A stretch of 64,000 nt of DNA. Origin: Haploplasma axanthum. Lineage in GTDB: Bacteria; Bacillota_I; Bacilli_A; Acholeplasmatales; Acholeplasmataceae. A model generated the notes under the pieces. It saw nothing but the letters and a program-made list of their open reading frames with translations. It searched no databases and was not told where the DNA came from. The first letter of the stretch is position 1. Each line of letters begins with the position of its first letter. A program made the position numbers and the translations under genes. This document shows, piece by piece, positions 8,724-64,000 of the stretch. The stretch lies in the NCBI RefSeq assembly GCF_900660745.1, contig NZ_LR215048.1:992001-1056000 (forward strand). The letters run 5' to 3'.

Positions 8724-8752
8724 TTGATAAAATATACACTATATGTTAGAAT
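8724..8752 (+). promoter_or_regulatory. Promoter of the fluoride-responsive transcript
   Basis: A -35 box TTGATA (8724-8729), 17-bp spacer and -10 box TAGAAT (8747-8752) lie immediately upstream of the riboswitch. Confidence 0.7.
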
Positions 8753-8818
8753 TTATATGGGAATGATGTTCTCCCTTGGATTAACCAAAACCGCACGAAA
8801 ATTGCTGATGACGTCTAC
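8753..8818 (+). ncRNA. Fluoride riboswitch (crcB motif)
   Basis: The segment shows the crcB/fluoride aptamer signature: GGGAATGATGTTCTCCC near 8759-8775, an AACC...ACCGC joining region, then GCTGATGACGTCTAC (8804-8818). The pseudoknotted aptamer binds Mg2+-coordinated fluoride. It lies between a good promoter and an intrinsic terminator (8814-8848) and precedes a cation/proton antiporter, one of the gene classes known under this riboswitch. The 3' end of the aptamer overlaps the terminator's 5' arm, so fluoride binding should prevent termination and allow expression. Confidence 0.88.
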
Positions 8819-8848
8819 GCTTATTTTGCGTAGTATGTCTTTTTTTTA
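8812..8848 (+). terminator. Riboswitch-controlled intrinsic terminator
   Basis: A GACGTCTACGC arm pairs with GCGTAGTATGTC, followed by eight T residues. The 5' arm is shared with the fluoride aptamer's 3' end. Confidence 0.8.
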
Positions 8849-50074: not shown

Positions 50075-50095
50075 AACAAAAAAGAGGTGTTAAAA

Positions 50096-52393
50096 GTGAA
50101 AAAATTTAATCAAAATATAATTCAAAATATTTATGTACTACTTTTAATTACAGTACTAACACTATTCTTTTTTATATTTATAAGAAAATCAATTAATGAA
50201 GATGCTAGAATAATGGCACAAAATAATAATAATGGCGTAGCAACACTACTTAATAAGACTTTTGAAACAGATTACGAGTTATTTGTAAACAATGGCTTTA
50301 AAAATGAAAATATTTTTGATTTAACAGAACAAAATCTAATTATAGATGTAGATACTTTAAAACAATGGCAAATTACATCGTTAGATAAAATAATAAGTAA
50401 TTCAGATGATTCTTTGAAAAAAGTTGTTTTCTATAAAGAAAATCAATTAGGAGTGAAGCTAATAAATGAATATGAATATCTATTTAACGATAATAGCAAT
50501 ATAGACTATTTAATAATTGATCAACAAGGAATAATAAAATATAGCACAAATAATAAATATCAAGGTAAGATTCAAAATAATATAAAACCTGTAAGATGGT
50601 TAGATGATAATTTAAGTAGAAATAGTTACTCAAGTATTAAGTCTAATGATATGTTTATTAGTTACATGAAAATAGATAACGGTTTTATATTATTTCAATT
50701 AGCTAATTCAAGAGTATTTATTAATCAAAACCAAAATCTAGTTTATGCAATTATCATATTTATGTTTTTGATGATATTCATTGTTGTAACATACTATTTG
50801 ATATTAAAAAAGAATTTTAATGAACGAGTGAAGAAATTAGACCAATTAGTATTTTCAAAATATGATTACTTTTATATTGCTGTTCTAAATTTAAAAGGTA
50901 AAATAATAAGAACTAATACAATGTTTAAAGATGAGTTCTTAAAAGATAAAAAATTTGAAACAATATTTGAATTAGATAAATTTAATATTAAAGATTCAAA
51001 TGATTTAAAAGATAATAGCAAAATTTATTTTAGATTAAATAATAAAAGATTTAGTTTTAAAATTTTTAGAAAAGAAAATACATATTCAGTAGTTGGAGAA
51101 GTATATAACGAACAACTAGAAAAGTATCAAAAGCTTGCTTATTCAAATTCGATAAGTGGTGTTGGTAATTTATTTGCCTTTACTGAATATGTTAATAATA
51201 CTAAAAATGATAAGGAATCTACTTATGTTATAGTTGATATTAAAGATTTTAACAAAATAATGCAATTTAAAGGTTATTCAGCATCTGTAAAAATTATTAA
51301 AAAAATAACTGATATTTTTGATCAAAATAAAAAAGAAGGTATAAAACTTTTTCATGTTAAAATTGATACTTTTATTTTAGTTATTGATGGACATATTGAT
51401 GAGAGATGGGTTACAAGAAGAATCAAGAAATATGAAAGTATAAGTTTGAATGAAAATGAAACAGTAATGCTTGAATATAAAACCGGAATTGTTCATTCTA
51501 CTTATGTAGTTGGAAGTGATGGAGAAAAAATATATGATACATTATTAATCACATTGACTCGTGCTAAAAAATCATCAATATACGATATTATTACTTATGA
51601 TGATAACTTGAAATTATTTTTAACTAATCGTGAAATAATGTTAAAAGATTTGAATAATGCACTGGTAAATGATGAATTCATTATCTTTCTTCAACCTAAA
51701 TTAGATTTAAGAGATAAAAGAATCAAATCTTTTGAAGCTCTACTAAGATGGAATAATCCAAAATATTTAAAAAGATCACCTGAAGAATATATAACATTAG
51801 CCGAAGAGAGTGATTTAATAGTAAAAATTGGAGATATAGTTATTGAAAAAACTTTTGAAATCTTAAAGGATTATAAGAATAAAAATATTAATATCGCTAT
51901 AAACATATCACCTAAGCAAATAATTGAACAAGGGTTTGTTAATAAACTCATCCTTGCAGCAAGAAAAAATGAGATTGAACCTTCACAAATTTCAATTGAA
52001 GTTACTGAAACAATTTTAGTAGAAACATTTGATATAGTTATTGAAAAAATAAAAAGCCTAAAGAAAGCTGGATTTAGTATCCATTTAGATGATTTTGGTA
52101 CAGGGTATAGTTCTCTTAAGTACTTAAAAGATTTGCCAATTGATGTTATAAAGATTGATAAACAGTTTATTAAAGATATGAGTGATGATCTTAAATCTGA
52201 AGCAATTGTTAAAACTATGATACAATTAACTCATGAATTAGGTTTAACAGTTGTTGCTGAAGGTATTGAAAATAAGCAAGAATTAGAAAAATTAAAAATT
52301 CTTGGATGTGATTATATTCAAGGTTATTTAATAAGTAAACCGGTAATTGCTAAAGAAGCATTATTGAAATACAATAAAACAATTAAGTTTTAG
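50096..52393 (+). CDS. Membrane-bound GGDEF(degenerate)-EAL phosphodiesterase
   Basis: 765 residues; GTG 50096 is favoured by AGAGGTG 6 bp upstream. Residues ~1-30 and ~215-240 are membrane helices flanking an extracytoplasmic sensor domain. A GGDEF domain (residues ~365-510) has lost its catalytic loop. The EAL domain (~525-765) is complete: SFEALLRWNN, INISPKQ, EVTETI, HLDDFGTGYSSLKYLKD, VIKIDKQFI, VVAEGIE and QGYLISKP. It is predicted to hydrolyse c-di-GMP to pGpG in response to an outside signal. It precedes a second, degenerate EAL gene and, beyond an IS, a c-di-GMP riboswitch. Confidence 0.9.
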   Translation: MKKFNQNIIQNIYVLLLITVLTLFFFIFIRKSINEDARIMAQNNNNGVATLLNKTFETDYELFVNNGFKNENIFDLTEQNLIIDVDTLKQWQITSLDKIISNSDDSLKKVVFYKENQLGVKLINEYEYLFNDNSNIDYLIIDQQGIIKYSTNNKYQGKIQNNIKPVRWLDDNLSRNSYSSIKSNDMFISYMKIDNGFILFQLANSRVFINQNQNLVYAIIIFMFLMIFIVVTYYLILKKNFNERVKKLDQLVFSKYDYFYIAVLNLKGKIIRTNTMFKDEFLKDKKFETIFELDKFNIKDSNDLKDNSKIYFRLNNKRFSFKIFRKENTYSVVGEVYNEQLEKYQKLAYSNSISGVGNLFAFTEYVNNTKNDKESTYVIVDIKDFNKIMQFKGYSASVKIIKKITDIFDQNKKEGIKLFHVKIDTFILVIDGHIDERWVTRRIKKYESISLNENETVMLEYKTGIVHSTYVVGSDGEKIYDTLLITLTRAKKSSIYDIITYDDNLKLFLTNREIMLKDLNNALVNDEFIIFLQPKLDLRDKRIKSFEALLRWNNPKYLKRSPEEYITLAEESDLIVKIGDIVIEKTFEILKDYKNKNINIAINISPKQIIEQGFVNKLILAARKNEIEPSQISIEVTETILVETFDIVIEKIKSLKKAGFSIHLDDFGTGYSSLKYLKDLPIDVIKIDKQFIKDMSDDLKSEAIVKTMIQLTHELGLTVVAEGIENKQELEKLKILGCDYIQGYLISKPVIAKEALLKYNKTIKF

Positions 52394-52403
52394 GGGGAAT
52401 AAT

Positions 52404-53792
52404 ATGCCAGAATTAATCCAAGTTATTGCAATAGCACTAGCAACAATCTTAATGATTTTTTTGAGTTTTATTTTTGTGAAATTACTCAAGAAAGAAAAAG
52501 ATAAAGAAATTGAAGATAGGATAATTTTTAGTAATGAATCATTAGATTATGAAATTTTCATGAAACTAATTAATCGAAAAGTTTATGAAAATAAAGGTCA
52601 AAATTTCTTTACTATTTTTTGGATTAATATTAATCGTTTCTTTGTAGTTGAAGAAACATATAATAAAGAAGATGTTGAAAATATAATTAAACAAATTCAT
52701 TATCATTTGAAGGAAATTCTTCCAAAAACAGCTAAAATTGCTTATGGTAAATATCCTGGTACTATACTTGTATATCTACCAAAAATTTATCAAGAAAATG
52801 AAACGAATATATTAGCTAAAAAAATAAAAAGCACTGCGGAATTAAAAATTAAAGTTTTTGAAGATATTTATTTTGAAACATCGGCAACAATAGCGTATGT
52901 TAAATACCCACTTAATGGGCAAACTAGTGAAAGACTAATTGAGAGTTTAAGTATGGCGGCATATTTAAGTGAAAAACTTGGTGGCACTGGAATAACAGGC
53001 TATAGCAATGAAATGGAAAAAGACCGAAAATTCCTTGATTTCTATTTTGAAGTTAAAAGAGCAATCCAAAGAAAAGAATTTACATTGTATTATCAGCCGA
53101 TTATAGATGTTAAAAATAGTGAAATATACGGATATGAATCACTTGTTAGATGGAATCATCCTGATAAGGGAACTTTATCACCAAAAGAGTTTATGCCTCT
53201 AATGGAACAATCAGGTGATATCAATTGGATTAGTATATGGGGGTTAGAAACAGTGATTAAAACTAATTTCGATCTTAAAACAGAAATCCCTAACAACTAT
53301 TCATGGCATATAAATATTAGTCATCGTCAGTTATTAAATAATAAATTAGTTAATGAATATCAAAATACAATTACTAAATATCGAATAGAAGCGCGTAAAA
53401 TAGTTTTAGAGATTGCAGATTTTCAAGATATGTTTGAACATGAAGATGCATTAAGAACAATTCTTAAATTAAAAAATATTGGTTTTAGAATTGCAGTATC
53501 TGTTGATAAGGTAGATTATCAAATGCTTACTAAAATTGAACAATATAAGATTGATATGATTAAACTTAATGTTAAAATGCTTAAAGATGATTATGTTACA
53601 ACTCAAAAATATGTTGAGGTAATATCAGAATTAACAAATAAAAATAATATGAAAGTTATTATTGAATCAGTTGAAGAAAAAATTGATGAAGATCAAATCA
53701 ATAAGTACAAATTTAGATATGGACAAGGTTTTTATTATTCAAAACCACTTAAAAAAGATGAAATTAGCACTTTTTCGTTAAAAAATAAGTAA
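52404..53792 (+). CDS. Degenerate EAL-domain protein, probable c-di-GMP receptor
   Basis: 462 residues, ATG 52404 after GGGGGAA, 10 bp downstream of the phosphodiesterase gene. One N-terminal membrane helix (VIAIALATILMIFLSFIFV) is followed by a divergent GGDEF-like domain. The EAL-like domain (~230-460) keeps ESLVRWNHP and QGFYYSKPL, but the DDFGTGY loop is replaced by VSVDKVDYQM and the catalytic Lys context by IKLNVKM. It should not hydrolyse c-di-GMP and may bind it or the partner enzyme. The 27-bp target duplication of an IS1202-like element begins one base inside its stop region. Confidence 0.75.
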   Translation: MPELIQVIAIALATILMIFLSFIFVKLLKKEKDKEIEDRIIFSNESLDYEIFMKLINRKVYENKGQNFFTIFWININRFFVVEETYNKEDVENIIKQIHYHLKEILPKTAKIAYGKYPGTILVYLPKIYQENETNILAKKIKSTAELKIKVFEDIYFETSATIAYVKYPLNGQTSERLIESLSMAAYLSEKLGGTGITGYSNEMEKDRKFLDFYFEVKRAIQRKEFTLYYQPIIDVKNSEIYGYESLVRWNHPDKGTLSPKEFMPLMEQSGDINWISIWGLETVIKTNFDLKTEIPNNYSWHINISHRQLLNNKLVNEYQNTITKYRIEARKIVLEIADFQDMFEHEDALRTILKLKNIGFRIAVSVDKVDYQMLTKIEQYKIDMIKLNVKMLKDDYVTTQKYVEVISELTNKNNMKVIIESVEEKIDEDQINKYKFRYGQGFYYSKPLKKDEISTFSLKNK

Positions 53793-53817
53793 AAAAGTAT
53801 TATTCGAGATAAATATT
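53791..53817. repeat. 27-bp target-site duplication, left copy
   Basis: Perfect 27-bp direct repeat of 55348-55374, starting AAAAAAGTATTATTCGAG. The length is characteristic of the IS1202 group. It begins inside the stop codon of the degenerate EAL gene. Confidence 0.9.
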
Positions 53818-55347
53818 TGTCAATATCTTTTGAAAATGTCCTAAAAAAATAAGATCATTAACGTGATTTATACATTGCTCTTTCTATCATCCGATTATAA
53901 GAATCACTTTTCCATGGATGACTATTAGGGACAGTGTATTTTTTCTTTTCTTTTTCAACACCAAGATCGAAATCTTTAGAATGACTTTCGTGAGATTCTA
54001 ATTCAATTAATTTATAGTAATCACTGTTAATTAAACAATATAATTTATTATCAAATGATTTGATAACTATAGCTTTTGTACGATGTTTAAAGTTCATTAA
54101 GTTACCATTTTTATTATAGGCTTGGAAATACTTGTTTTGATACTTTAAAGCAGAGCCACGGTCAAATACACGGCTAGATATAACAGCTAAAATTAAGTTT
54201 AAATCAGTATCACTATTAATCTTTTCGTAAACTTGTGGTATATTATCATTAATGAGAGAGAATTGTTTATTAAACTTATCAAGATATGATTGTAGGAACT
54301 CATTTGCTTGAACGATGGTCTTAATATTATTAATTCGTAACTCATTTATTAATCTGGATTGTAACGTTCCAAATAAACGTTCAATTCGCCCCTTAGCTTG
54401 AGGAATAGAAGTAACATTTAAAGTTATGCCCAGCTGCTCGCAGGCATAACCAAATTGTGTTAATGTACTATACTCGGGCTTAGGGTTTTTTAATGATTTA
54501 TAGTCGAAGATTGTTCTTCTGTCAGTTAGAAACTCATTAGGTATCCCATGATTCTCTAATGTTTGCTTTAAAACGTTGTAATAGCCAATTAGAGTCTCTT
54601 GATGATCAAAATATGCACCAACTAACATTCCTGTAGCATCGTCTATTGCTGCATGAAGATGAGTTTTTTTATCTCCAAACCATAAATGTTCTGATGCGTC
54701 CATTTGTAATAACTCGCCACCATATTTTTTTCTTGGAAGTCTTGCGTGATTATCTTTAGGATCTAAAATGTTATTATCAATGATAAGATTCTTTTCTTGA
54801 ATAGATAAGGATTCGTTTAAATCTATTTTTGTTTGAATTCTATCACGGTATTTCCTCTTAGTAATTCTTTCAGCTTTTGGTGATAAAATAAGATTTTCAT
54901 CTAAGAGATTGTATAGAGAATTATATGATATTTTAATTTTCTCATTTTCCAGAAGCATTTCTTTAAAATGTTTAAAGTTGAAATTGTAGTATTTATTATT
55001 ATATAAATTTAAAATTTTATTTTTGATTTCAACTTTAATTATAAGGTGAGGAGACTTCTTTCTATTACCATGAATAAAACCTTCCTTACCTTGTTCATTA
55101 TATTTGATAATTAATCTATTAACTTGTCTAAGTGATATACCTAGTTTATTAGCAGCATTAAGTTTATTACCGTTATTTGTTACTAAGTTTTTTATTGTTT
55201 CATACTTCATTTGTTCCATTGGTTTTAGTTCTACCTTTCTCATTAAGTACCTCCATTATATTAAGTACTTAATATTGTATTATAGTTTCTAATGTTTGGG
55301 ACATTATTAAAAGATACTACTTAAGACATTATCATAAGATAACCACA
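53818..55347 (-). mobile_element. IS1202-type insertion sequence, 1530 bp
   Basis: Bounded by imperfect terminal inverted repeats: TGTCAATATCTTTTGA at the left, and at the right the complement reading TGTGGTTATCTTATGA, matching 21 of 27 positions. It is flanked by a perfect 27-bp target duplication. It contains one transposase gene on the minus strand. The duplication length and transposase match the IS1202 group (formerly ISNCY). The right-hand duplication abuts the -35 box of the riboswitch promoter, so the promoter is intact but its upstream context has been replaced. Confidence 0.92.
53858..55243 (-). CDS. IS1202-group DDE transposase
   Basis: 461 residues, ATG at 55243 after GGAGGTACTTA. 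N-terminal HTH (ATIKxLVTNNGNKLNAANKLGISLRQVNRL-type arrangement, residues ~14-40) precedes the DDE core: LLQMDASEHLWFGD (first Asp), EFLTDRRTIFDY (second Asp), QAKGRIERLFGTLQSRL (Glu). Length and motifs match the group sometimes labelled ISNCY. The frame is intact, so the element may be active. The recent-looking perfect target duplication supports a young insertion. Confidence 0.9.
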   Translation of the reverse strand: MRKVELKPMEQMKYETIKNLVTNNGNKLNAANKLGISLRQVNRLIIKYNEQGKEGFIHGNRKKSPHLIIKVEIKNKILNLYNNKYYNFNFKHFKEMLLENEKIKISYNSLYNLLDENLILSPKAERITKRKYRDRIQTKIDLNESLSIQEKNLIIDNNILDPKDNHARLPRKKYGGELLQMDASEHLWFGDKKTHLHAAIDDATGMLVGAYFDHQETLIGYYNVLKQTLENHGIPNEFLTDRRTIFDYKSLKNPKPEYSTLTQFGYACEQLGITLNVTSIPQAKGRIERLFGTLQSRLINELRINNIKTIVQANEFLQSYLDKFNKQFSLINDNIPQVYEKINSDTDLNLILAVISSRVFDRGSALKYQNKYFQAYNKNGNLMNFKHRTKAIVIKSFDNKLYCLINSDYYKLIELESHESHSKDFDLGVEKEKKKYTVPNSHPWKSDSYNRMIERAMYKSR

Positions 55348-55374
55348 AAAAAAGTATTATTCGAGATAAATATT
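55348..55374. repeat. 27-bp target-site duplication, right copy
   Basis: Identical to 53791-53817. It ends directly before TTGACA, the -35 box of the riboswitch promoter. Confidence 0.9.
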
Positions 55375-55403
55375 TTGACAAATATAAAACTGTTTGATAA
55401 AAT
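55375..55403 (+). promoter_or_regulatory. Promoter of the c-di-GMP-controlled operon
   Basis: TTGACA (55375-55380), 17-bp spacer, TAAAAT (55398-55403). A near-consensus promoter immediately upstream of the riboswitch. Confidence 0.8.
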
Positions 55404-55419
55404 ATATGAGCATCGAAAG

Positions 55420-55495
55420 AATGTAAAAGGCAAACCAAGGGTAACCTTGGGACGCAAAGCTATAGGGTCCTAAAATTGGATAGCCAGTTGTCATT
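55420..55495 (+). ncRNA. c-di-GMP-I riboswitch (GEMM-I)
   Basis: The aptamer signature is clear. GGCAAACC (55429-55436) leads into P2, CCAAGG-GTAA-CCTTGG with a GNRA tetraloop (55435-55450), then GACGCAAAGC (55451-55460), then the second arm with CCTAAA...GGATAGCC, which contains the tetraloop receptor. P1 is formed by AATG (55420-55423) with CATT (55492-55495) and neighbouring bases. The P1 3' strand (AGCCAGTTGTCAT) is also the 5' arm of the terminator, so ligand binding and termination should be mutually exclusive. This predicts an on-switch by c-di-GMP. Confidence 0.93.
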
Positions 55496-55514
55496 ATGAC
55501 AATTGGCTTTTTTT
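55482..55514 (+). terminator. Riboswitch expression platform (intrinsic terminator)
   Basis: AGCCAGTTGTCAT pairs with ATGACAATTGGCT, followed by seven T residues. The 5' arm overlaps the P1 3' strand of the c-di-GMP aptamer, so termination should occur when c-di-GMP is low. Confidence 0.88.
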
Positions 55515-55536: not shown

Positions 55537-56244
55537 ATGCGGTTATCTGAAATATGGAATAAAAAAGGAACTAAAAAACTCAGTTTATTAAAAGTATTAG
55601 CACCTGTTGCGTTACTAACATTTACAATTGTATTTCTAACATTTTATGGTGTTAATACTGGTAATTTCTCAATTGGAGTAAGTAGTAATGCTTATGATAG
55701 AAATATTTCGATTTCAATCACTCCAGACTCAAATGAAAACAAAAAAACAATTTACGTTAATTCTAGAAACTTGTTACCAATTAATTTGTTAACAGTCGAG
55801 TCACAACTTGATGAAATAACAACAACAGATGGTGAATACAAAGGTAAGTACTCAAGAAATATTGTTGCATATAGTTTTTATATTAAAAATGAATCATCAA
55901 GTTTATCGTTTGATCTTGCTTATTCAATTCTACTAAGAGATATAAAAAAATATCAAGATGAGATTAGGTATATAAAAATTATGGTGATTAGCGATGATGA
56001 GAAAACAATATACCAAAGTAGCTTGAGTGAAAAGAAATATCAAGATGATTATAGTTATTATGATTTTGATGAAAATGCTAAAGAAATTGTTGTTGGAAAG
56101 CCTAAAATAATTAGTGCGAGATCAGAAAGAAAATATACAATTTTGTTTTGGTATGATGGCGATGAGATGGTAAATGCTAACATTAATAAAAATGATATTC
56201 TTGAAAGTTTAAAGTTTCAAATAAACTTTGAAATAGTGGATTAA
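55537..56244 (+). CDS. Exported single-pass protein, first gene of the surface operon
   Basis: 235 residues, ATG 55537 after TTAGGAGGTGATTTGG, just past the riboswitch terminator. A cytosolic stub (RLSEIWNKKGTKKLSLLK) precedes one membrane helix (VLAPVALLTFTIVFLTFYGV); the rest is outside, mostly beta (NISISITPDSNENKKTIYVN, NIVAYSFYIKNESSSLSFD, SERKYTILFWYDGDE). It does not have the AxAW-type cleavage site of its neighbours, so it may stay membrane-anchored. Functionally it could be a minor or base subunit of the surface structure. Homologues are often annotated only as hypothetical. Confidence 0.65.
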   Translation: MRLSEIWNKKGTKKLSLLKVLAPVALLTFTIVFLTFYGVNTGNFSIGVSSNAYDRNISISITPDSNENKKTIYVNSRNLLPINLLTVESQLDEITTTDGEYKGKYSRNIVAYSFYIKNESSSLSFDLAYSILLRDIKKYQDEIRYIKIMVISDDEKTIYQSSLSEKKYQDDYSYYDFDENAKEIVVGKPKIISARSERKYTILFWYDGDEMVNANINKNDILESLKFQINFEIVD

Positions 56245-56248
56245 AACT

Positions 56249-57151
56249 ATGAAGAAAATAAGAATATTGACTTTAACATTAATTATCACATTGTTTACAT
56301 TCTCAGTTGGTGCAGTAGCGTGGCTACAGATTAGTAACATTAATATTGTTGAAGGAATTAACTTGAATGCTGGTAGTGGTGATTTACTTGATATATCACT
56401 TGATGGAATTAACTATGCAAAAAGATTAGATGAAACATTGATTAAAGAAAAGTTAAGAAGATTAAGATTCTCAGATGTAACAACAACTGACGGAATAAAC
56501 TTCTTTCAAGGTCCTAACAATGAAACAAGAATAGCAAGACCTAATATTGATTACTTAACATTTGATATCTGGTTTAGAGTTACTCTAGAAGATAATACAA
56601 ATGAAAATGAAGTCTTTGATAAAATATTTTTAACTAATCGAAAAGAAGTAAAATACGATGAAACAAATAATGTTAAAGGAACTTATGTAACATCGGAAGG
56701 AAAAAGTTGGAAAGCAGATTTAGAATTCAATGATGGAAATAAGATCATAAAAAAAGGCGAAACCAACAATTATTATGCAAAAGATGCAATAAGAATTGGA
56801 TTTGCTAGTGATGAAAATCAATTTATTTATGATATTAGTGAAAATGAAGAACGTGGTTTTGGAATGGAGTTTGGAGCATTTGATTACTATAATCAAAAAA
56901 ATCCTTTAAATAAATTAAAAGTTCCAGAAAAAAAACCAGAAACAATCTATGAACTTTCAAAAGAAAGTGGAGCAGTAGGTTTTATGAATAATGATAATTC
57001 CCTAATAGTTTCACTAAAGAAAGAGGACAAACATTATTATGGTAAAGCTAAATTAAATATTTGGCTTGAAGGATGGGATCCAGATAGTATTGAAGCAATA
57101 CTAAACGATCACATATTAATTCAGCTAGAATTTATAGCTGCAAAATTATAA
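56249..57151 (+). CDS. SipW-dependent surface protein, TasA/camelysin-like
   Basis: 300 residues, ATG 56249, 4 bp after the previous stop. Signal peptide IRILTLTLIITLFTFSVGAV with the AVAW-type cleavage region typical of substrates of ER-type signal peptidases. The mature part is beta-rich (YLTFDIWFRVTLED, SWKADLEFNDGNKIIKKG). Its C-terminus LNIWLEGWDPDSIEAILN matches the end of the next gene's product (IEGWDGEAFNAILG), so they are paralogous domains. TasA-like proteins assemble into extracellular fibres. This one is likely a fibre or matrix subunit. Confidence 0.8.
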   Translation: MKKIRILTLTLIITLFTFSVGAVAWLQISNINIVEGINLNAGSGDLLDISLDGINYAKRLDETLIKEKLRRLRFSDVTTTDGINFFQGPNNETRIARPNIDYLTFDIWFRVTLEDNTNENEVFDKIFLTNRKEVKYDETNNVKGTYVTSEGKSWKADLEFNDGNKIIKKGETNNYYAKDAIRIGFASDENQFIYDISENEERGFGMEFGAFDYYNQKNPLNKLKVPEKKPETIYELSKESGAVGFMNNDNSLIVSLKKEDKHYYGKAKLNIWLEGWDPDSIEAILNDHILIQLEFIAAKL

Positions 57152-57200: not shown

Positions 57201-58076
57201 ATGAAATTTACAAAGAAAATGGTTTTATCAGTATTAACATTAGTTATTACAGTGTTTGCATTAGGTACTGGGGTATTTGCATGGTTTACAATCAACAATA
57301 CAACTAGTGTCTCAGATTTAAGTGGAACAGTACAATCAGGTACAGGTGGATTTTTAATTTCAACTAATGGAGAAGATTGGAATACAGCTCTTGATTTAAG
57401 TGGTATTACAGTTAAAGGTGATAGTTTTACTGACTTAACATCTGAAGATGGAAAAACATTTAAAAGTCTAAATAATGATTCAGTGGCAACTGGATATATT
57501 GAATTTGACTTACATTTCTTAATTGGTACTACATTTAATAGAATTAATTTATCAGATTTAACAGTATCAAGTGAAGAAACATCATGGAAATCAGATGTAG
57601 AAGTTACACTTGATAAAAAATACAATGTTGGTGATGCAATAAAAAATTATGCTTCAAATGCTGCAAGAATTTCAATTGAAAATCAAAAAAATGATGTTAC
57701 TGTTTTTGAACAAAGTCAAACTGCTGTTGGAAATACAAGTGGTGTAGCAACTGAAACAAATAACTATGCATTTATTTATTATAATGCTTTAGCTACAAAG
57801 ACTGGTAAAACAGCACTTAATTTTGCTAATGCATCAGCTTTAACAACTGATGGTCATGCAAGAGTTGGAGAAGAAGCATTTACTTCTATAGAAATTAGTG
57901 ATGCAATTGAAGTGCCATCAACTATTACTGTAAAGGAAGAAGATACTAAGGCAGGTTACACAAAATATGCTAAGATTACAGTTCGTGTTTGGATTGAAGG
58001 TTGGGATGGAGAAGCATTCAATGCAATCTTAGGTGGTAAGTTAAATCTTAACTTTACATTCACTGCTGCTGAATAA
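57201..58076 (+). CDS. TasA/camelysin-like major surface protein
   Basis: 291 residues, ATG 57201 after AAAAAGGAGAAAAAG. Signal peptide FTKKMVLSVLTLVITVFALG, then GVFAWFTINN, the cleavage-region motif shared with the other exported proteins. The mature protein is rich in Thr, Ser, Asn and Ala and beta-forming, with few aromatics, as in secreted fibre subunits (e.g. VSDLSGTVQSGTGGFLISTN, EIDLHFLIGTT-like segment). The C-terminus RVWIEGWDGEAFNAILG repeats the motif of the upstream paralogue. Position, strong ribosome-binding site and a following stabilising hairpin suggest it is the most abundant product of the operon. Confidence 0.82.
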   Translation: MKFTKKMVLSVLTLVITVFALGTGVFAWFTINNTTSVSDLSGTVQSGTGGFLISTNGEDWNTALDLSGITVKGDSFTDLTSEDGKTFKSLNNDSVATGYIEFDLHFLIGTTFNRINLSDLTVSSEETSWKSDVEVTLDKKYNVGDAIKNYASNAARISIENQKNDVTVFEQSQTAVGNTSGVATETNNYAFIYYNALATKTGKTALNFANASALTTDGHARVGEEAFTSIEISDAIEVPSTITVKEEDTKAGYTKYAKITVRVWIEGWDGEAFNAILGGKLNLNFTFTAAE

Positions 58077-58176: not shown

Positions 58177-58842
58177 ATGAAAGAGAATAAAAAATCAAAC
58201 GGAAGCAAGATTATATCAGTTATAGGAAATGTTATATTTTATACATTTATTTTGGTTTTATTACTTTTTTCAATAGTCAATTTGAGTGCGAAAAAGGAAG
58301 ATGATGTACCAACATTGTTTGGTAGAGGATTTGTTACAGTACTTAGTGATTCGATGAACGGAGATAAGAAAGATTCGTTTAAAGAAGGAGCGTTAGTATT
58401 TGTAAAAGATCTAAATGATGATGATAAAAAGAATTTAAAAGTTGGAGATGTTGTTGTTTTTTGGGGACAATTATCGATTGATGATCCAAAATTACAAGCA
58501 CATATAATTCATAGAATTATTAAAATTGAAGGAAACAATATTACTACACAAGGTGATAGCCTAAGAAATGCAAATACTACAGAAACAAATGATATAAGTA
58601 GAATTAAAGCACTTGCGACTGGACATGTTGAAGGATTAGGAAAACCAATTAATTATTTAAGAACATCAACTGGTTTTGCATTATTTATTCTATTACCATT
58701 ATTTATATTATTAATTGTTCAAATTACAATTTTAGTTGTTAATGTTGTTAATAGAAATAAAGAAAGATTAAGAATTGATCATGAAGCTGAAAAAGCAAGA
58801 TTAAAAGAAGAAATTTTGAAAGAGTTAAAAGAGAAACAATAA
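58177..58842 (+). CDS. sipW: ER-type signal peptidase (SipW-like)
   Basis: 221 residues, ATG 58177 after AAGGAGTTACATAA. N-terminal helix (IISVIGNVIFYTFILVLLLF) and C-terminal helix (LFILLPLFILLIVQITILVV) flank the S26B catalytic domain. The nucleophile is Ser59 in VLSDSM; the general base is His112 in IIHRIIKI, in place of the Lys of ordinary bacterial signal peptidases; the GDS at 126-128 is the third conserved site. This Ser/His type (SipW of Bacillus) cleaves TasA-like proteins. It lies between the TasA-like genes and an AAA+ gene. Confidence 0.9.
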   Translation: MKENKKSNGSKIISVIGNVIFYTFILVLLLFSIVNLSAKKEDDVPTLFGRGFVTVLSDSMNGDKKDSFKEGALVFVKDLNDDDKKNLKVGDVVVFWGQLSIDDPKLQAHIIHRIIKIEGNNITTQGDSLRNANTTETNDISRIKALATGHVEGLGKPINYLRTSTGFALFILLPLFILLIVQITILVVNVVNRNKERLRIDHEAEKARLKEEILKELKEKQ

Positions 58843-58861: not shown

Positions 58862-60427
58862 ATGGGCAATTTTGCAAAATGGTATATAGATATTCTACAA
58901 AAAACAATGCAAGTAATAATTAGTTTTTTTGTAGGAATTGGTGAATTTATTGCAAATATATTTGTAAGATATCCTGTAAATTCATTCAATAGCTTCACAC
59001 TAGCAACTCGTGAATTTCAATTGCTGGATTGGGTAGCTGCAATTGTTGTTGTGAGTGTTAATATTGTCTTTTTAGTTATTATTCTTTTATTAGTATTTAG
59101 ACTATTAAAAAAATATATTAGATTTGTTAAAAGAGAGATTAATACTGATAATTTAATAGATGAAATTAGTGAGTTAAACAGAGCATTGATAGAAAGCACG
59201 AATGAAAAAAATACAATTTTAGCCCTTAAATCGGAAGACTTAGGGTTAGGTAGTGGTGTGGTATCAAATCGTGTTAAAAGTTCAAACTTATTAACTGAAA
59301 ATATTGATGGTACAGATGAAGAAAAGAATAAAAATGAAGATTCAAGATTTGTTAAATTACTTGATGTTGATGAAACATATGATTATGCTGTTTTACCAAC
59401 ACATATGTATGAAACAGATCGAATTAATTTAAATGAATTAGTTAACAGATTTATAAATTTCTCAGCATCGAAATTAAAACTATTTTATACACATAAAACA
59501 GTAACAACGTTTTTAGCTGGTATGGCTTCATCAAAGATTATTATTCTTGAAGGTATATCTGGAACTGGTAAAACATCATTACCGTATGCTTTTGGAAAAT
59601 TCTTTAATAATGATTCATCAATAATTTCCGTTCAACCATCTTGGCGTGATAGAACAGAAATTATAGGATACTTAAATGAATTTACGAAAAAGTATACTGA
59701 ACCAGATTTCTTGAAAGCTATTTATGAAACAACATACAGAACAGATGTTAATCTGATTATATTAGATGAAATGAACTTAGCTCGTGTTGAATATTATTTT
59801 GCGGATTTCTTATCAATAATGGAAATGCCAAAACCTGAAGAGTGGTTAATTGATATTGTTGGTGATAGTCAACCAGGAGATCCAATTAATCTTAAAAAAG
59901 GAAAAATGCTATTACCACAAAACGTCTGGTTTATAGGAACCGCTAATCGTGATGATTCAACATTTACAATTACCGATAAGGTATATGATAGAGCAGCATC
60001 AATTGAGATGAATGATAGAGCTAATTATATAGATGCACCAGATACAAATAATGTTCATATGAGTTATGAATATTTAGATGGTTTGTTCAAACAAGCTGTA
60101 ATTGATAATCCTATAACAACAAAAACACTTGAAAACCTAGAAAAACTTGATTTATTTATAACATCAAAATTCCAAATTACATTTGGTAATCGTATTATGA
60201 GACAAATAAAGAGTTTTATTCCCGTATATGTTGCTAGTGGTGAAAATGAAATTGATGGACTTGATTATATTGTTTCAAGAAAAGTAATCAGAAAATTTGA
60301 AACCCTAAATCTACCATTTTTAGTTAATGAATTAGATGAATTATTAAAAGAAATTGATAAACTATTCGGTAAAACTAAATTCAATGAAACACGTAAAATG
60401 ATTGAACAATTTAGAAAACAGGTATAG
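58862..60427 (+). CDS. Membrane-anchored McrB-type AAA+ ATPase
   Basis: 521 residues, ATG 58862 after GGTGGTGATTTAA. Residues 12-34 and 57-80 are membrane helices, followed by a basic, coiled-coil linker. The AAA+ domain has Walker A GISGTGKTS (231-239), Walker B NLIILDEMNLARVEY (about 297-311) with FADFLS, and FIGTANRDD (about 358-365). These last two resemble the McrB/AAA_5 family, whose sensor motif follows a conserved strand. Restriction McrB lacks membrane anchors, and the gene is inside a secretion operon rather than next to a DNA methyl-binding protein, so it probably remodels or drives an envelope process. The next gene encodes its likely partner. Confidence 0.85.
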   Translation: MGNFAKWYIDILQKTMQVIISFFVGIGEFIANIFVRYPVNSFNSFTLATREFQLLDWVAAIVVVSVNIVFLVIILLLVFRLLKKYIRFVKREINTDNLIDEISELNRALIESTNEKNTILALKSEDLGLGSGVVSNRVKSSNLLTENIDGTDEEKNKNEDSRFVKLLDVDETYDYAVLPTHMYETDRINLNELVNRFINFSASKLKLFYTHKTVTTFLAGMASSKIIILEGISGTGKTSLPYAFGKFFNNDSSIISVQPSWRDRTEIIGYLNEFTKKYTEPDFLKAIYETTYRTDVNLIILDEMNLARVEYYFADFLSIMEMPKPEEWLIDIVGDSQPGDPINLKKGKMLLPQNVWFIGTANRDDSTFTITDKVYDRAASIEMNDRANYIDAPDTNNVHMSYEYLDGLFKQAVIDNPITTKTLENLEKLDLFITSKFQITFGNRIMRQIKSFIPVYVASGENEIDGLDYIVSRKVIRKFETLNLPFLVNELDELLKEIDKLFGKTKFNETRKMIEQFRKQV

Positions 60428-60431
60428 ATTA

Positions 60432-62174
60432 ATGAAAAGAAGATATGATCTAAAACTATTTTATGATATGGTCATAAATGAAATTGATAATGCTGAATTA
60501 GAAACAGATTTTCCATTTTATTTTTATCAAGCTTTTGATAAAGGTGAAAAACTTGTTTCACAAACATTAGTAACAGAGATCAAAAAGTTTGATGAAACAT
60601 GGATTAAAACTGTTGAATCATATTTCCCAAGTATTGATAAAATAACGAAAAATTTAAAATCAAATTTAAAATATGAAGAAGAAATAAGAATTATTGAAAA
60701 AGCTAAAAAAACTGGTAGTAAATCAATTCAACATTTAGCAGCAAATACACATCTTATTAAAGAAGTTAAACCAAATATTATTCCTAAAAAGATTTTAGTC
60801 GATAATTCGGAAATTGATTATGCAATCTATGAAAACAGATTTGTGATGACTTTAATTGAACGTTTATCAGATTTTGTATATCAACGACTTAATATTATTA
60901 AACAAAATATTGAAGCAAGTCAAACAGTTAAAATGAACATTGATAGTAAATTTATGTTTGGTGATGAAGAATATAAGATTAATCTTGATTTGAATAAAAC
61001 CGAAAAAGTGTCAAAAAAGTCTGAAATGGAAGCAAACCTTCAACTATATAAACGAGTTGAATATTTATATCGACAAATAACAAATCTTAAAAAAGGGCAG
61101 TTTATGAGTATTTTAAAAAATGCTAAAAAAGTAACTGCACCAATACTTAAAACCCAAATTATTCTTAAGAATACTGATTATCGTAATGCATATAATTTAT
61201 GGATTTTCCTTGATCAATATTCATCACTTGGATTTGAATTAGAAACAAAAACTTCGAATAAAAAGTTTACACAAAGTTATAAAAAACATTTAACTCAAAA
61301 CGTTTTATTGTTATTTGCAACTACGCTATTTCATGAAAAACAAACGCTAAATAGTGATTATACAAAAGGTAATAGAAGAAAGTTTAAATCGTATTTGACA
61401 AAGGTAAGCAATCTTGATGTTGTAAAAGATCCAAGAAGCTTTTCAAATGAGCATCAAGAAATGAATGAATACTATTTAAATCAAATGAAAATAATTTTTA
61501 AAACGCAAATCGATAAGTATAGTAGTGAAGGTAAAAATAAACGTATTTCATTAAAAAATGCAATTAATGATACTTTGAAAATTGTAAATTCAATTTATTC
61601 ATCATACTTAGGAATTAATAGTGAAAACGAAGTTTTTGATCAATTAATAAAACCAGATAGAAAAAAAGTTATGCTAGATGAATCAATGGAAAAATATAAA
61701 CTTGTTAAAGCACTTAGAGAAGCAAAAGAAAAAGATTTGCGAGAAACATATGAATTAGAACTTAGATGGCAAAAAATAGTTGAAGAAAAATCTAATGATT
61801 TACATCTTGAAAATCTTGAATTAAGTAAGAAAAAAATAACTAAAAAACTTGAAAAAGAAGTAAATGACTTTAAGAAATATAAAGAAAAAAGAATTGATCA
61901 AACTAAAAAAATTAAGGAACAAGCAATTAGAAAACATAAAGATGAGTTAAAAGATTTTGAAGAAAAACTTAAATTCAAATATCAAAAGCAACAAGAGAAA
62001 ATAAAAAAAGTTGAACAAGAAAAACTGTTAAAAATTAAAGAGAAGCTTAAAAAAGAAAAAATGAAATTAAAACTTCAAGAACAAAAAAAGCTTGCAAAAG
62101 AAAAAGACAAACAAGCAACAATTAATGAAAGAAAAAAAATGAAGTTAGAAGAAAAATATAACCCTAAAGGATAG
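60432..62174 (+). CDS. DUF2357-like protein with long C-terminal coiled coil
   Basis: 580 residues from ATG 60432, 4 bp after the AAA+ stop (a TTG at 60402 in frame is less likely). The middle has IDYAIYENRFVMTLIERLSD (about 128-147), the YExRF pattern of DUF2357, a family that often accompanies McrB-type ATPases and resembles the N-terminal part of McrC. Unlike McrC I see no PD-(D/E)XK nuclease. From about residue 415 the chain is a Lys/Glu-rich coiled coil of over 150 residues. It is likely cytosolic or peripherally attached and partners the upstream AAA+ protein. Confidence 0.7.
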   Translation: MKRRYDLKLFYDMVINEIDNAELETDFPFYFYQAFDKGEKLVSQTLVTEIKKFDETWIKTVESYFPSIDKITKNLKSNLKYEEEIRIIEKAKKTGSKSIQHLAANTHLIKEVKPNIIPKKILVDNSEIDYAIYENRFVMTLIERLSDFVYQRLNIIKQNIEASQTVKMNIDSKFMFGDEEYKINLDLNKTEKVSKKSEMEANLQLYKRVEYLYRQITNLKKGQFMSILKNAKKVTAPILKTQIILKNTDYRNAYNLWIFLDQYSSLGFELETKTSNKKFTQSYKKHLTQNVLLLFATTLFHEKQTLNSDYTKGNRRKFKSYLTKVSNLDVVKDPRSFSNEHQEMNEYYLNQMKIIFKTQIDKYSSEGKNKRISLKNAINDTLKIVNSIYSSYLGINSENEVFDQLIKPDRKKVMLDESMEKYKLVKALREAKEKDLRETYELELRWQKIVEEKSNDLHLENLELSKKKITKKLEKEVNDFKKYKEKRIDQTKKIKEQAIRKHKDELKDFEEKLKFKYQKQQEKIKKVEQEKLLKIKEKLKKEKMKLKLQEQKKLAKEKDKQATINERKKMKLEEKYNPKG

Positions 62175-62182
62175 TGGTTAAA

Positions 62183-62758
62183 ATGAAAAAAATCTTAAGT
62201 TATATATTAAGTGCAATAACATTACTTATTTTAATAATATCAATTATCTTTGTTATTTTAAATATTAAAGGTGTGAAAGATAATACACCAATAAAAATCT
62301 TTGGTTACAGATATTCACTTGTGGTTTCTGATTCAATGAATCCAAGTATTCAAAAAGGTGACTATGTAATTTATGAAGAATTTGATGAATATAATCTTAA
62401 GGATGTAATAGTTTATCGAAGTAAAACTGATAATAAGTTGATAGTTCATGAAATAGTTGAGGAAACTTCGTTTGGATTTAAAACTAAAGGAAGTAATAAT
62501 AAAATAAATGATTTTAATTATGAAGGGTATATTACAAATGATCGTATTCTTGGAAAAGTGGTTAAAGTTACAGCTTTATTAGGCATTGGAAGATTATTTA
62601 CTTCCAATAAATCCATGGTTATTATGATTGTTGTTATAGTATCATTTGGAATTATTGTTTGGCAAATAGTTGATATTACGAAAGCTTTAAAAGAAAAAAC
62701 AAAAGAAAAATATCAAAAAGAATTAGAAGATTATAAGAAAGAATTGAACGATAAATAA
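62183..62758 (+). CDS. Second ER-type signal peptidase
   Basis: 191 residues from ATG 62183 (a GTG at 62174 is possible). N-terminal helix YILSAITLLILIISIIFVIL and C-terminal helix SMVIMIVVIVSFGIIVWQIV flank the S26B domain: Ser51 in VVSDSMNP and His89 in IVHEIVEE; KGSNNKIND is the third box, with Ser where Asp is usual. It ends in a Lys-rich coiled coil (LKEKTKEKYQKELEDYKKEL). It is paralogous to the upstream peptidase but divergent, so the two may process different subsets of the exported proteins. The next gene, 19 bp downstream, is another exported substrate. Confidence 0.87.
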   Translation: MKKILSYILSAITLLILIISIIFVILNIKGVKDNTPIKIFGYRYSLVVSDSMNPSIQKGDYVIYEEFDEYNLKDVIVYRSKTDNKLIVHEIVEETSFGFKTKGSNNKINDFNYEGYITNDRILGKVVKVTALLGIGRLFTSNKSMVIMIVVIVSFGIIVWQIVDITKALKEKTKEKYQKELEDYKKELNDK

Positions 62759-62777: not shown

Positions 62778-63482
62778 ATGCTAAAAAAATTATATATTTC
62801 AGTAGTAGTATTATTACTTGCAGTACTAAGTATGACTGTATCTGTCTTTGCTTGGTTTACTGAAGTAAAAAGTAGTTCAGAAGCAAACGGATTAAATGGT
62901 AAAATTGATCAAAATGTTCAGTTTGAATTTGATACTGATTATGATATGTTAATTGATACTACAAGATTTGAGGATTTAATTTATGTAACAAGAGAGGACC
63001 TTGCAAAAGGTACCCAAACAACATATAGTGGTTTATCAACAAATATAACAATAACAATCAAGAATAAAGATTTAGAAAAATTTAGAATTTACGTTGGAGC
63101 AAGTATTGCTGCATCACTTAATGCAGGTCCTTATACAGGTATTAGCAATGGTTTATTGTATTTGGTTTATAGTGAAGTTGATGTTGAAAATGCACTAAAT
63201 GCAAACAAAAATGTTGTGGATTACATAATGGAAAGAGAAATTTTTAATTTTGACAGAACAAATATGACGGATAGTCAATATGTTGATGCTGCTATTTCTA
63301 ATCTAAGATCAAGAAATGGAATATTAATTAGTGGAACTAAGACAGAAGAAACGATGTTTATTGCTGCTTGGGGTTACTATGATGGATTAAAAGGATATAC
63401 TTACAACAATGTGGAATTGCAAAAACTATATTATTCTCTAGTTTATCAAGTAACTTTCATGCTTCGTGGAGGGTTAGCATAA
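62778..63482 (+). CDS. SipW-dependent exported surface protein
   Basis: 234 residues, ATG 62778 after AAAAGGAGTGAAGACAG. Signal peptide KKLYISVVVLLLAVLSMTVS with the SVFAWFTEVKS cleavage region, matching GVFAWFTINN of the major subunit. The mature chain has Thr/Asn-rich beta segments (TTYSGLSTNITITIKNKDLE, VYQVTFMLRGGLA). It lacks the IEGWD ending of the two large paralogues, so it may be an accessory or capping subunit. It directly follows the second signal peptidase, its likely processing enzyme. Confidence 0.75.
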   Translation: MLKKLYISVVVLLLAVLSMTVSVFAWFTEVKSSSEANGLNGKIDQNVQFEFDTDYDMLIDTTRFEDLIYVTREDLAKGTQTTYSGLSTNITITIKNKDLEKFRIYVGASIAASLNAGPYTGISNGLLYLVYSEVDVENALNANKNVVDYIMEREIFNFDRTNMTDSQYVDAAISNLRSRNGILISGTKTEETMFIAAWGYYDGLKGYTYNNVELQKLYYSLVYQVTFMLRGGLA

Positions 63483-63483
63483 T

Positions 63484-64000
63484 ATGATAAAACTTAAAAA
63501 AATAGTAATATTATTATTAGTATTTGCTGCATCTATAGCAACATCAATAGGAGTATATGCATGGATTTCTGTTGGAGCTGAAAAAGAAGTTAGTGAACTA
63601 ATAACTGAACTTGATTCAACGAGAATTTTTGAAGCAAGTATGAATGTTAAAATAAATGACGAAGAAGTTAAATATTCTGATGTATCGCGTTATGATTCAG
63701 TTACACATATGTTTACATTTAATAATGTTGATGAATTAAGAGATGGTTTTAAAGTTAATGTTACAATTGAAGCTAAGAAACAGATTAAAGTCAGATTTAA
63801 AATTGTTGAAGAATGGCATAATAGTAATAATGAAATAATAGAAAATCCTCATTTACTAACATTTAATTCTAGTAATAGTGATTTATACAAAAAAGATAAT
63901 GAAAAATATATTTATTATACGCCAAGCATTGGTTTAGGAAAAATTGTTGAAGATATTGAGATTATTGATAGTGTTACATTTAGTAATACTAATGCAATTA
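63484..64000 (+). CDS. Exported surface protein, partial at right edge
   Basis: ATG 63484, one base after the previous stop, and open through 64000 (172 codons visible, no stop). Signal peptide KLKKIVILLLVFAASIATS with GVYAWISVGA at the cleavage region, the same pattern as its neighbours. The mature part begins EKEVSELITELDSTRIFEAS and is beta-rich (VTIEAKKQIKVRFKIVEEW). It is another substrate of the local signal peptidases; the operon continues beyond the window. Confidence 0.72.
   Translation, partial: MIKLKKIVILLLVFAASIATSIGVYAWISVGAEKEVSELITELDSTRIFEASMNVKINDEEVKYSDVSRYDSVTHMFTFNNVDELRDGFKVNVTIEAKKQIKVRFKIVEEWHNSNNEIIENPHLLTFNSSNSDLYKKDNEKYIYYTPSIGLGKIVEDIEIIDSVTFSNTNAI

Follow-up and report, generated by a model that had tools for sequence, protein, structure and literature searches.

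The NxD variant of McrB-type NTPases has been described for two groups, CoCoNuT and CoCoPALM (Bell et al., eLife 2024; PMC11090510), and the NxD relatives are predicted there to be RNA-targeting immune systems. CoCoPALM was named in one paragraph of that paper and deferred: it was introduced as an NxD McrB carrying a fused TM/coiled-coil domain and linked to signal peptidases, with a role in pilus assembly inferred from the peptidase (PMC11090510). No other paper using the name in this sense was found in the literature searched. Among surface systems, the SipW-system fibres of B. cereus and B. subtilis require SipW together with chaperone-like partners (PMC13082335), and donor-strand exchange has been described for such fibres (PMC9674648).

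Here we analyze a locus with features of both kinds of system in a window of 64,000 nucleotides, positions 992001-1056000 of a 1.88 Mb, single-contig genome from the Acholeplasmataceae group; its closest named loci are those of Acholeplasma. A sequence-only reading of this DNA had called the arrangement one not seen described, a claim that falls because the class was already published as CoCoPALM. In its main text that publication reports neither a riboswitch nor c-di-GMP proteins, and neither cargo nor a variant that lacks SipW; all of these are present here. Riboswitch control, c-di-GMP genes, cargo, a nuclease test and the SipW-less arrangement (type B) appear to be new, as they were not found in the literature searched, beyond which a fuller publication may exist; likewise, our searches returned no literature on a c-di-GMP riboswitch together with Acholeplasma.

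Gene order, operon leader and exported proteins

The plus strand carries a predicted phosphodiesterase gene and a pseudo-GGDEF-EAL gene, followed by an insertion sequence on the minus strand, a c-di-GMP-I riboswitch and an operon in the order T1, T2, T3, SipW-type peptidase 1, AAA, DUF2357, SipW-type peptidase 2, T4, T5 (Table 1). The sequence-only reading had located the AAA and DUF2357 open reading frames at these positions, between two ER-type signal peptidases and among exported proteins; both placements are confirmed, and each peptidase scores as the SipW/archaeal type. It overlooked both the riboswitch and the c-di-GMP genes that flank the operon. The most probable start of the DUF2357 protein is ATG 60432, not TTG 60402, because its homologues begin at the aligned MKRKYD.

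Table 1. Features of the locus, in window coordinates
Feature	Position	Strand	Matches and remarks
Membrane protein, degenerate GGDEF and intact-looking EAL, predicted phosphodiesterase	50087..52393	+	EAL 5.7e-68, GGDEF 7e-4
Membrane protein, degenerate GGDEF and EAL (pseudo-phosphodiesterase)	52404..53792	+	Pfam EAL 1e-44
IS1202/ISNCY-type insertion between c-di-GMP genes and operon	53819..55347	-	NF033594 5e-117
Promoter-like TTGACA-17-TAAAAT	55375..55403	+	TG before -10 (extended -10)
c-di-GMP-I riboswitch aptamer RF01051	55419..55495	+	64 bits, E 3.2e-10
Intrinsic terminator	55482..55508	+	5' arm overlaps aptamer 3' end
T1, anchored exported protein	55537..56244	+	ATG 55537 after AGGAGGTG; ORF listed from GTG 55528
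T2, exported protein	56249..57151	+	signal end ...VAW
T3, exported beta-rich protein	57201..58076	+	signal end ...FAWF
SipW-type signal peptidase 1	58177..58842	+	SipW model 3.5e-15; TIGR02228 4e-13
Membrane-anchored McrB-type (NxD) AAA+ NTPase	58862..60427	+	
DUF2357 (McrC N-terminal type) protein	60432..62174	+	C-terminal 165-residue helix, no nuclease
SipW-type signal peptidase 2	62174..62758	+	TIGR02228 1.4e-20, above cut-off
T4, exported protein	62778..63482	+	signal end ...FAWF
T5, exported protein with CBM5/12 modules	63484..64000	+	runs past window

Orthologues of the predicted phosphodiesterase gene precede the operon in relatives. In the pseudo-GGDEF-EAL protein the alignment shows the EAL metal-binding motif DDFG replaced, and GGDEF is degenerate too; the protein is possibly a c-di-GMP receptor. 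Beyond T5, which is 708 aa at full length (L024:9484-11610), lies a predicted diguanylate cyclase, of PAS-GGDEF type and with its GGDEF motif intact (L024:11764-13323). In a set of 80 named loci, T1 is immediately preceded by the pseudo-EAL gene in 27, by a gene for a giant protein in 7 and by other genes in 12; in the remainder, T1 or the DNA upstream of it was out of reach. The insertion element, with its transposase at 53858-55243, is flanked by 28-bp direct repeats (53791-53818 and 55348-55375), and the last base of the right repeat is the first of the operon promoter, with the riboswitch intact. At L044 the gap between pseudo-EAL and operon is only ~190 bp, compared with the gap in the window that bears the insertion. 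A fluoride riboswitch (RF01734, 45.5 bits) also lies in the window, at 8750-8824.

The aptamer is the only RF01051 copy in the genome (gathering score 35 bits). When the leader was folded without ligand the terminator formed, and the overlap of aptamer and terminator ahead of the operon leads us to predict from this layout that c-di-GMP acts as an ON signal. A. granularum and A. oculi have the same layout of promoter, aptamer and overlapping terminator. The element resembles other c-di-GMP-I (GEMM) riboswitches in exceeding the gathering score and overlapping a terminator, but it differs from them in its target, a SipW/CoCoPALM operon, in its frequent tandem aptamers and in the second riboswitch that relatives carry ahead of T4.

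Peptidase 1 falls just under the TIGR02228 cut-off (49.5 bits against 51.85) and peptidase 2 exceeds it, while both score below the cut-off of the Bacillus SipW model. T1 is kept in nearly all type A loci, the commonest arrangement described below. The signals of T2-T5 end in AW plus an aromatic or aliphatic residue, and signals ending AW[FILV] were found in 172 of 296 signal-bearing proteins within five genes of the AAA gene, compared with 7 of the 74 encoded farther away in these loci. The locus resembles Bacillus SipW-TasA/CalY systems in its ER-type SipW peptidases and in the aromatic residues that directly follow the hydrophobic signal of its exported proteins, and departs from them in having no TasA-family match, two SipW genes, an NTPase pair and a c-di-GMP riboswitch. 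TasA and camelysin models gave nothing above cut-off against the exported proteins (best E 0.14, signal region only), and no TasA family among NCBIfam models matched them. A PDB fold search with the T3 model returned nothing significant, which neither backs nor excludes a named fold beyond secondary structure. TasA membership of T2-T5 is therefore unsupported; of the earlier label "SipW/TasA-like operon", the SipW part stands and the TasA part survives only as an analogy, as does the word fibre for the exported product.

The AAA+ protein and its DUF2357 partner

From its N-terminus, the AAA protein consists of a helix, one strong TM helix, a coiled-coil-like stretch and the AAA core. The Walker A motif GISGTGKTS and the sensor motif N[KRN]DD are each invariant in 99/99 AAA relatives. 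When the family profile was compared with all solved structures, E. coli McrB was the sole PDB family reached (E 8e-4), and direct comparison with E. coli McrB (hhalign) gave an E value of 1e-7. These results uphold the earlier assignment to McrB-type AAA+ proteins with McrB-like motifs. The accompanying claim of two N-terminal membrane helices holds for one of them, since the strong TM helix is predicted in 98/99 relatives, whereas the N-terminal helix passes as TM in only four, the window protein among them, and is probably amphipathic in the family. The alignment shows a heptad-like segment after the TM helix, and by the positive-inside rule the basic residues directly after that helix predict a cytoplasmic AAA core. 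Pfam detected no DNA-recognition domain at the N-terminus, where the membrane helix and coiled coil stand instead.

The partner matches Pfam DUF2357 at 5e-9, exceeding the gathering score, and its YENRF motif is invariant in the alignment; 31 of 44 partner homologues also match this family. An AlphaFold2 model (mean pLDDT 80, pTM 0.44) has an alpha-beta N-terminal half up to about residue 305 and only helices beyond, including one helix of 165 residues at 411-576. The low pTM means that the relative placement of these parts is not trustworthy, and the safer reading is that the model contains no sheet-bearing nuclease domain. A PDB search with the model found no significant fold match and so neither backs nor excludes a named fold beyond secondary structure. 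Because single-sequence hhalign comparison of the DUF2357 profile with E. coli McrC gave nothing, the relation to McrC rests on Pfam DUF2357 and the literature.

Nuclease models matched none of the 44 partner homologues. The same kind of scan applied to a McrC homologue of the same phylum (L167) recovered both DUF2357 (4e-67) and PDDEXK_7 (9.5e-52), and domain scans of the operon proteins found no HEPN, PD-(D/E)XK or other nuclease. Canonical McrBC restriction was rejected on this basis. The sequence-only reading had described a DUF2357 YExRF pattern, a long coiled coil and no McrC nuclease in the partner, had concluded that this is not a restriction system, and had named a true McrC nuclease as the finding that would speak against it; the DUF2357 match, the modeled helix and the domain scans, with the nuclease visible in the control, agree with it.

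Conservation and predicted riboswitch control in relatives

The AAA genes of the window's family (class I) number 93 distinct genes in three arrangements, and 84 of them lie among SipW and exported-protein genes, which bears out the co-occurrence that the sequence-only reading had proposed to check by a genome-neighbourhood survey. Type A (69/93) has these neighbours with a DUF2357 gene next to the AAA gene, and type A' (15/93) has the same neighbours with no adjacent DUF2357 gene, often ~15 kb upstream of a type-A copy. The 15 type A' operons indicate that the pair is not obligatory in cis, which counts against the explanation we prefer below. In L053/L059 and others, a type A' and a type A operon share one contig, and a gene for a 1700-2400 aa giant protein closes each of them. 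Type B (9/93) has the order giant cadherin-like surface protein, degenerate GGDEF-EAL, AAA, DUF2357, and forms one clade within type A (tree support 81/87). Both type A and type B are present in the window genome, in one copy each. In its type B locus the giant protein carries ten cadherin-like domains and is membrane-anchored at the C-terminus, and the pseudo-EAL gene, directly before AAA as in type B generally, overlaps the AAA open reading frame by one base (L023).

The order of the pair and its SipW and exported-protein genes is kept across order and class. In 61 genomes a SipW-family gene lies within 6 kb of 30/43 class-I AAA genes, compared with 0/25 in two other classes of McrB-like genes (0/15 class IV, 0/10 class III), so the SipW link is not general to McrB-like genes.

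Upstream aptamers, one to four each, precede 22/22 type-A operons that have upstream DNA on the contig. The 61 genomes contain at least 101 riboswitches; these counts are lower bounds, since weak matches do not survive the filters used over 40 genomes. Of these, 54 lie beside class-I AAA genes (35 upstream within 7.5 kb and 19 just downstream, at the T4 site), where we estimate from genome sizes that about one would be expected by chance, and a further 11 are near other SipW genes. The remaining 36, distant from AAA and SipW, may mark other c-di-GMP regulon members of these bacteria. Class-I AAA genes with an upstream aptamer number 22 and those without 21, the latter comprising 5 at contig edges, 6 of type A' and 10 type B or SipW-less copies, some of them assigned provisionally. 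At gathering thresholds no riboswitch was found in type B, class II or class III loci, which also counts against the preferred explanation. Tandem arrays reach four c-di-GMP-I aptamers ahead of one operon (G016:C2:259425-259876) and three ahead of another (L067:6053-6368), and in the latter the terminator scan found none overlapping.

Other McrB-like classes in these bacteria combine AAA and DUF2357 genes differently. Class II (L158, L159, L161, L165, L169) pairs a ~600-aa multi-TM AAA with a 360-480 aa partner, which where tested is of DUF2357 type with a zinc-ribbon-like C-terminal end; the neighbouring genes encode an ABC transporter, exported proteins and a SipW-type protein of 290-370 aa. 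In class III (L152, L153, L154, L155), two membrane AAA genes flank one DUF2357 gene, placing two anchors on one motor domain; the motor DNA of the pair is 98.2-100% identical over 1.1-1.2 kb in four genomes while the 5' membrane parts differ, which suggests gene conversion, and the motor parts are ~75% identical in L156 and L157. Class IV (L162-L164, L169) has a ~890-aa AAA and a ~520 aa DUF2357 partner, with a zinc ribbon where tested, and its copies in L162-L164 have no surface genes alongside.

A proposed surface-structure operon and the alternatives

Four features of CoCoPALM have a counterpart in the locus: NxD followed by D or E corresponds to N[KRN]DD, the fusion of AAA to TM and coiled coil (FtsB-like in the class) to the TM helix and heptad-like segment, the signal peptidase link to the SipW genes within 6 kb, and the McrC homologue with coiled coil to the modeled 165-residue helix. 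The window locus is thus CoCoPALM-class by motif, anchor, peptidase and partner features rather than by tree placement. With E. coli McrBC it shares the AAA core and, by Pfam DUF2357, the N-terminal McrC-type domain, but it has a membrane anchor in place of the DNA-binding domain, NxD in place of NxxD, and no nuclease. NxD followed by D/E, coiled coils and McrC homologues that have lost the nuclease are likewise features of CoCoNuTs, but the HEPN or other nucleases and the RNA-binding parts of those systems were not found here.

We put at roughly 60% the reading that this CoCoPALM-class locus is a c-di-GMP-induced surface-structure operon with its own nuclease-free McrB/McrC-type machine. The pair probably serves in the construction or control of a surface structure, not in cutting foreign DNA, and the structure is probably fibrous or adhesive. 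At the level of sequence, the surface and c-di-GMP parts of this account are strongly supported; a role of the AAA protein in assembly, gating or signalling is plausible. We infer machine action from McrBC and from the type-B swap, in which the core sits beside a different surface protein with no SipW. High c-di-GMP would stabilize the aptamer and prevent the terminator, turning the operon on, and T2-T5 would be released by the SipW-type peptidases. The AAA proteins would assemble into a ring at the cytoplasmic side of the membrane, activated by the DUF2357 protein as McrB is by McrC, with the long coiled coil replacing the nuclease. NTP hydrolysis by the ring might then remodel or gate the membrane platform of the structure, a step that the pseudo-EAL protein may couple to c-di-GMP.

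A more specific version, which we hold only tentatively, is that the ring is a dedicated energy user in assembly under double c-di-GMP control, of its transcription by ON riboswitches that are often tandem and of its activity by the adjacent pseudo-GGDEF-EAL protein, and that in type B this core has moved onto giant cadherin-like adhesins. To our knowledge, the TasA fibres of B. subtilis and B. cereus are built without any cytoplasmic NTPase, so that it cannot be taken for granted that assembly needs energy, and this counts against the preferred reading.

The pair could instead serve signalling or quality control, reading the state of secretion (unprocessed or mislocalised proteins, c-di-GMP) and controlling synthesis or turnover rather than assembly. 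The pseudo-EAL gene abutting AAA in type B, the AAA genes without an adjacent DUF2357 gene, and the distance of other SipW-type genes in the same genomes from AAA all fit such a role, but no DNA-binding or protease domain was found and the pair always sits inside a structural operon, leaving this alternative unlikely.

Immunity has the precedent of the closest characterised relatives, which are restriction or immune systems, and of the RNA-targeting function predicted for NxD relatives (PMC11090510); a CoCoNuT/McrBC relative at the membrane might detect phages attacking the surface or envelope, its place in the operon reflecting the surface it guards. The PADLOC candidate defence family PDC-M26A also matches the AAA protein at 4e-40, a point against the surface reading; the match covers the AAA core only, with its best stretch at profile positions 305-431 of 724. 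The same profile fits the riboswitch-free, 890-aa class IV AAA better (1.7e-49, its best match), near which no SipW occurs. Together with the lack of a nuclease or other effector domain, the conserved synteny at one to three copies per genome and the c-di-GMP riboswitch control, this makes defence a distinctly improbable function. Least likely of all is a surface motor that moves or retracts giant surface proteins with a logic comparable to mycoplasma gliding machines, which would suit wall-less hosts, the membrane-anchored giant repeat proteins of type B and a long rigid helix in place of the nuclease, but no gliding family was recognised at the locus.

The naming of CoCoPALM rested on gene neighbourhoods alone, and the riboswitch adds an inducer, a predicted sign and a physiological role that can be tested in cultivated laboratory species, Acholeplasma granularum and A. 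oculi among them. If the surface-structure reading is true, c-di-GMP would control a SipW-dependent surface structure in wall-less bacteria, and a restriction-type NTPase would have been turned into surface-structure machinery, a component with no counterpart in the known TasA fibre pathways.
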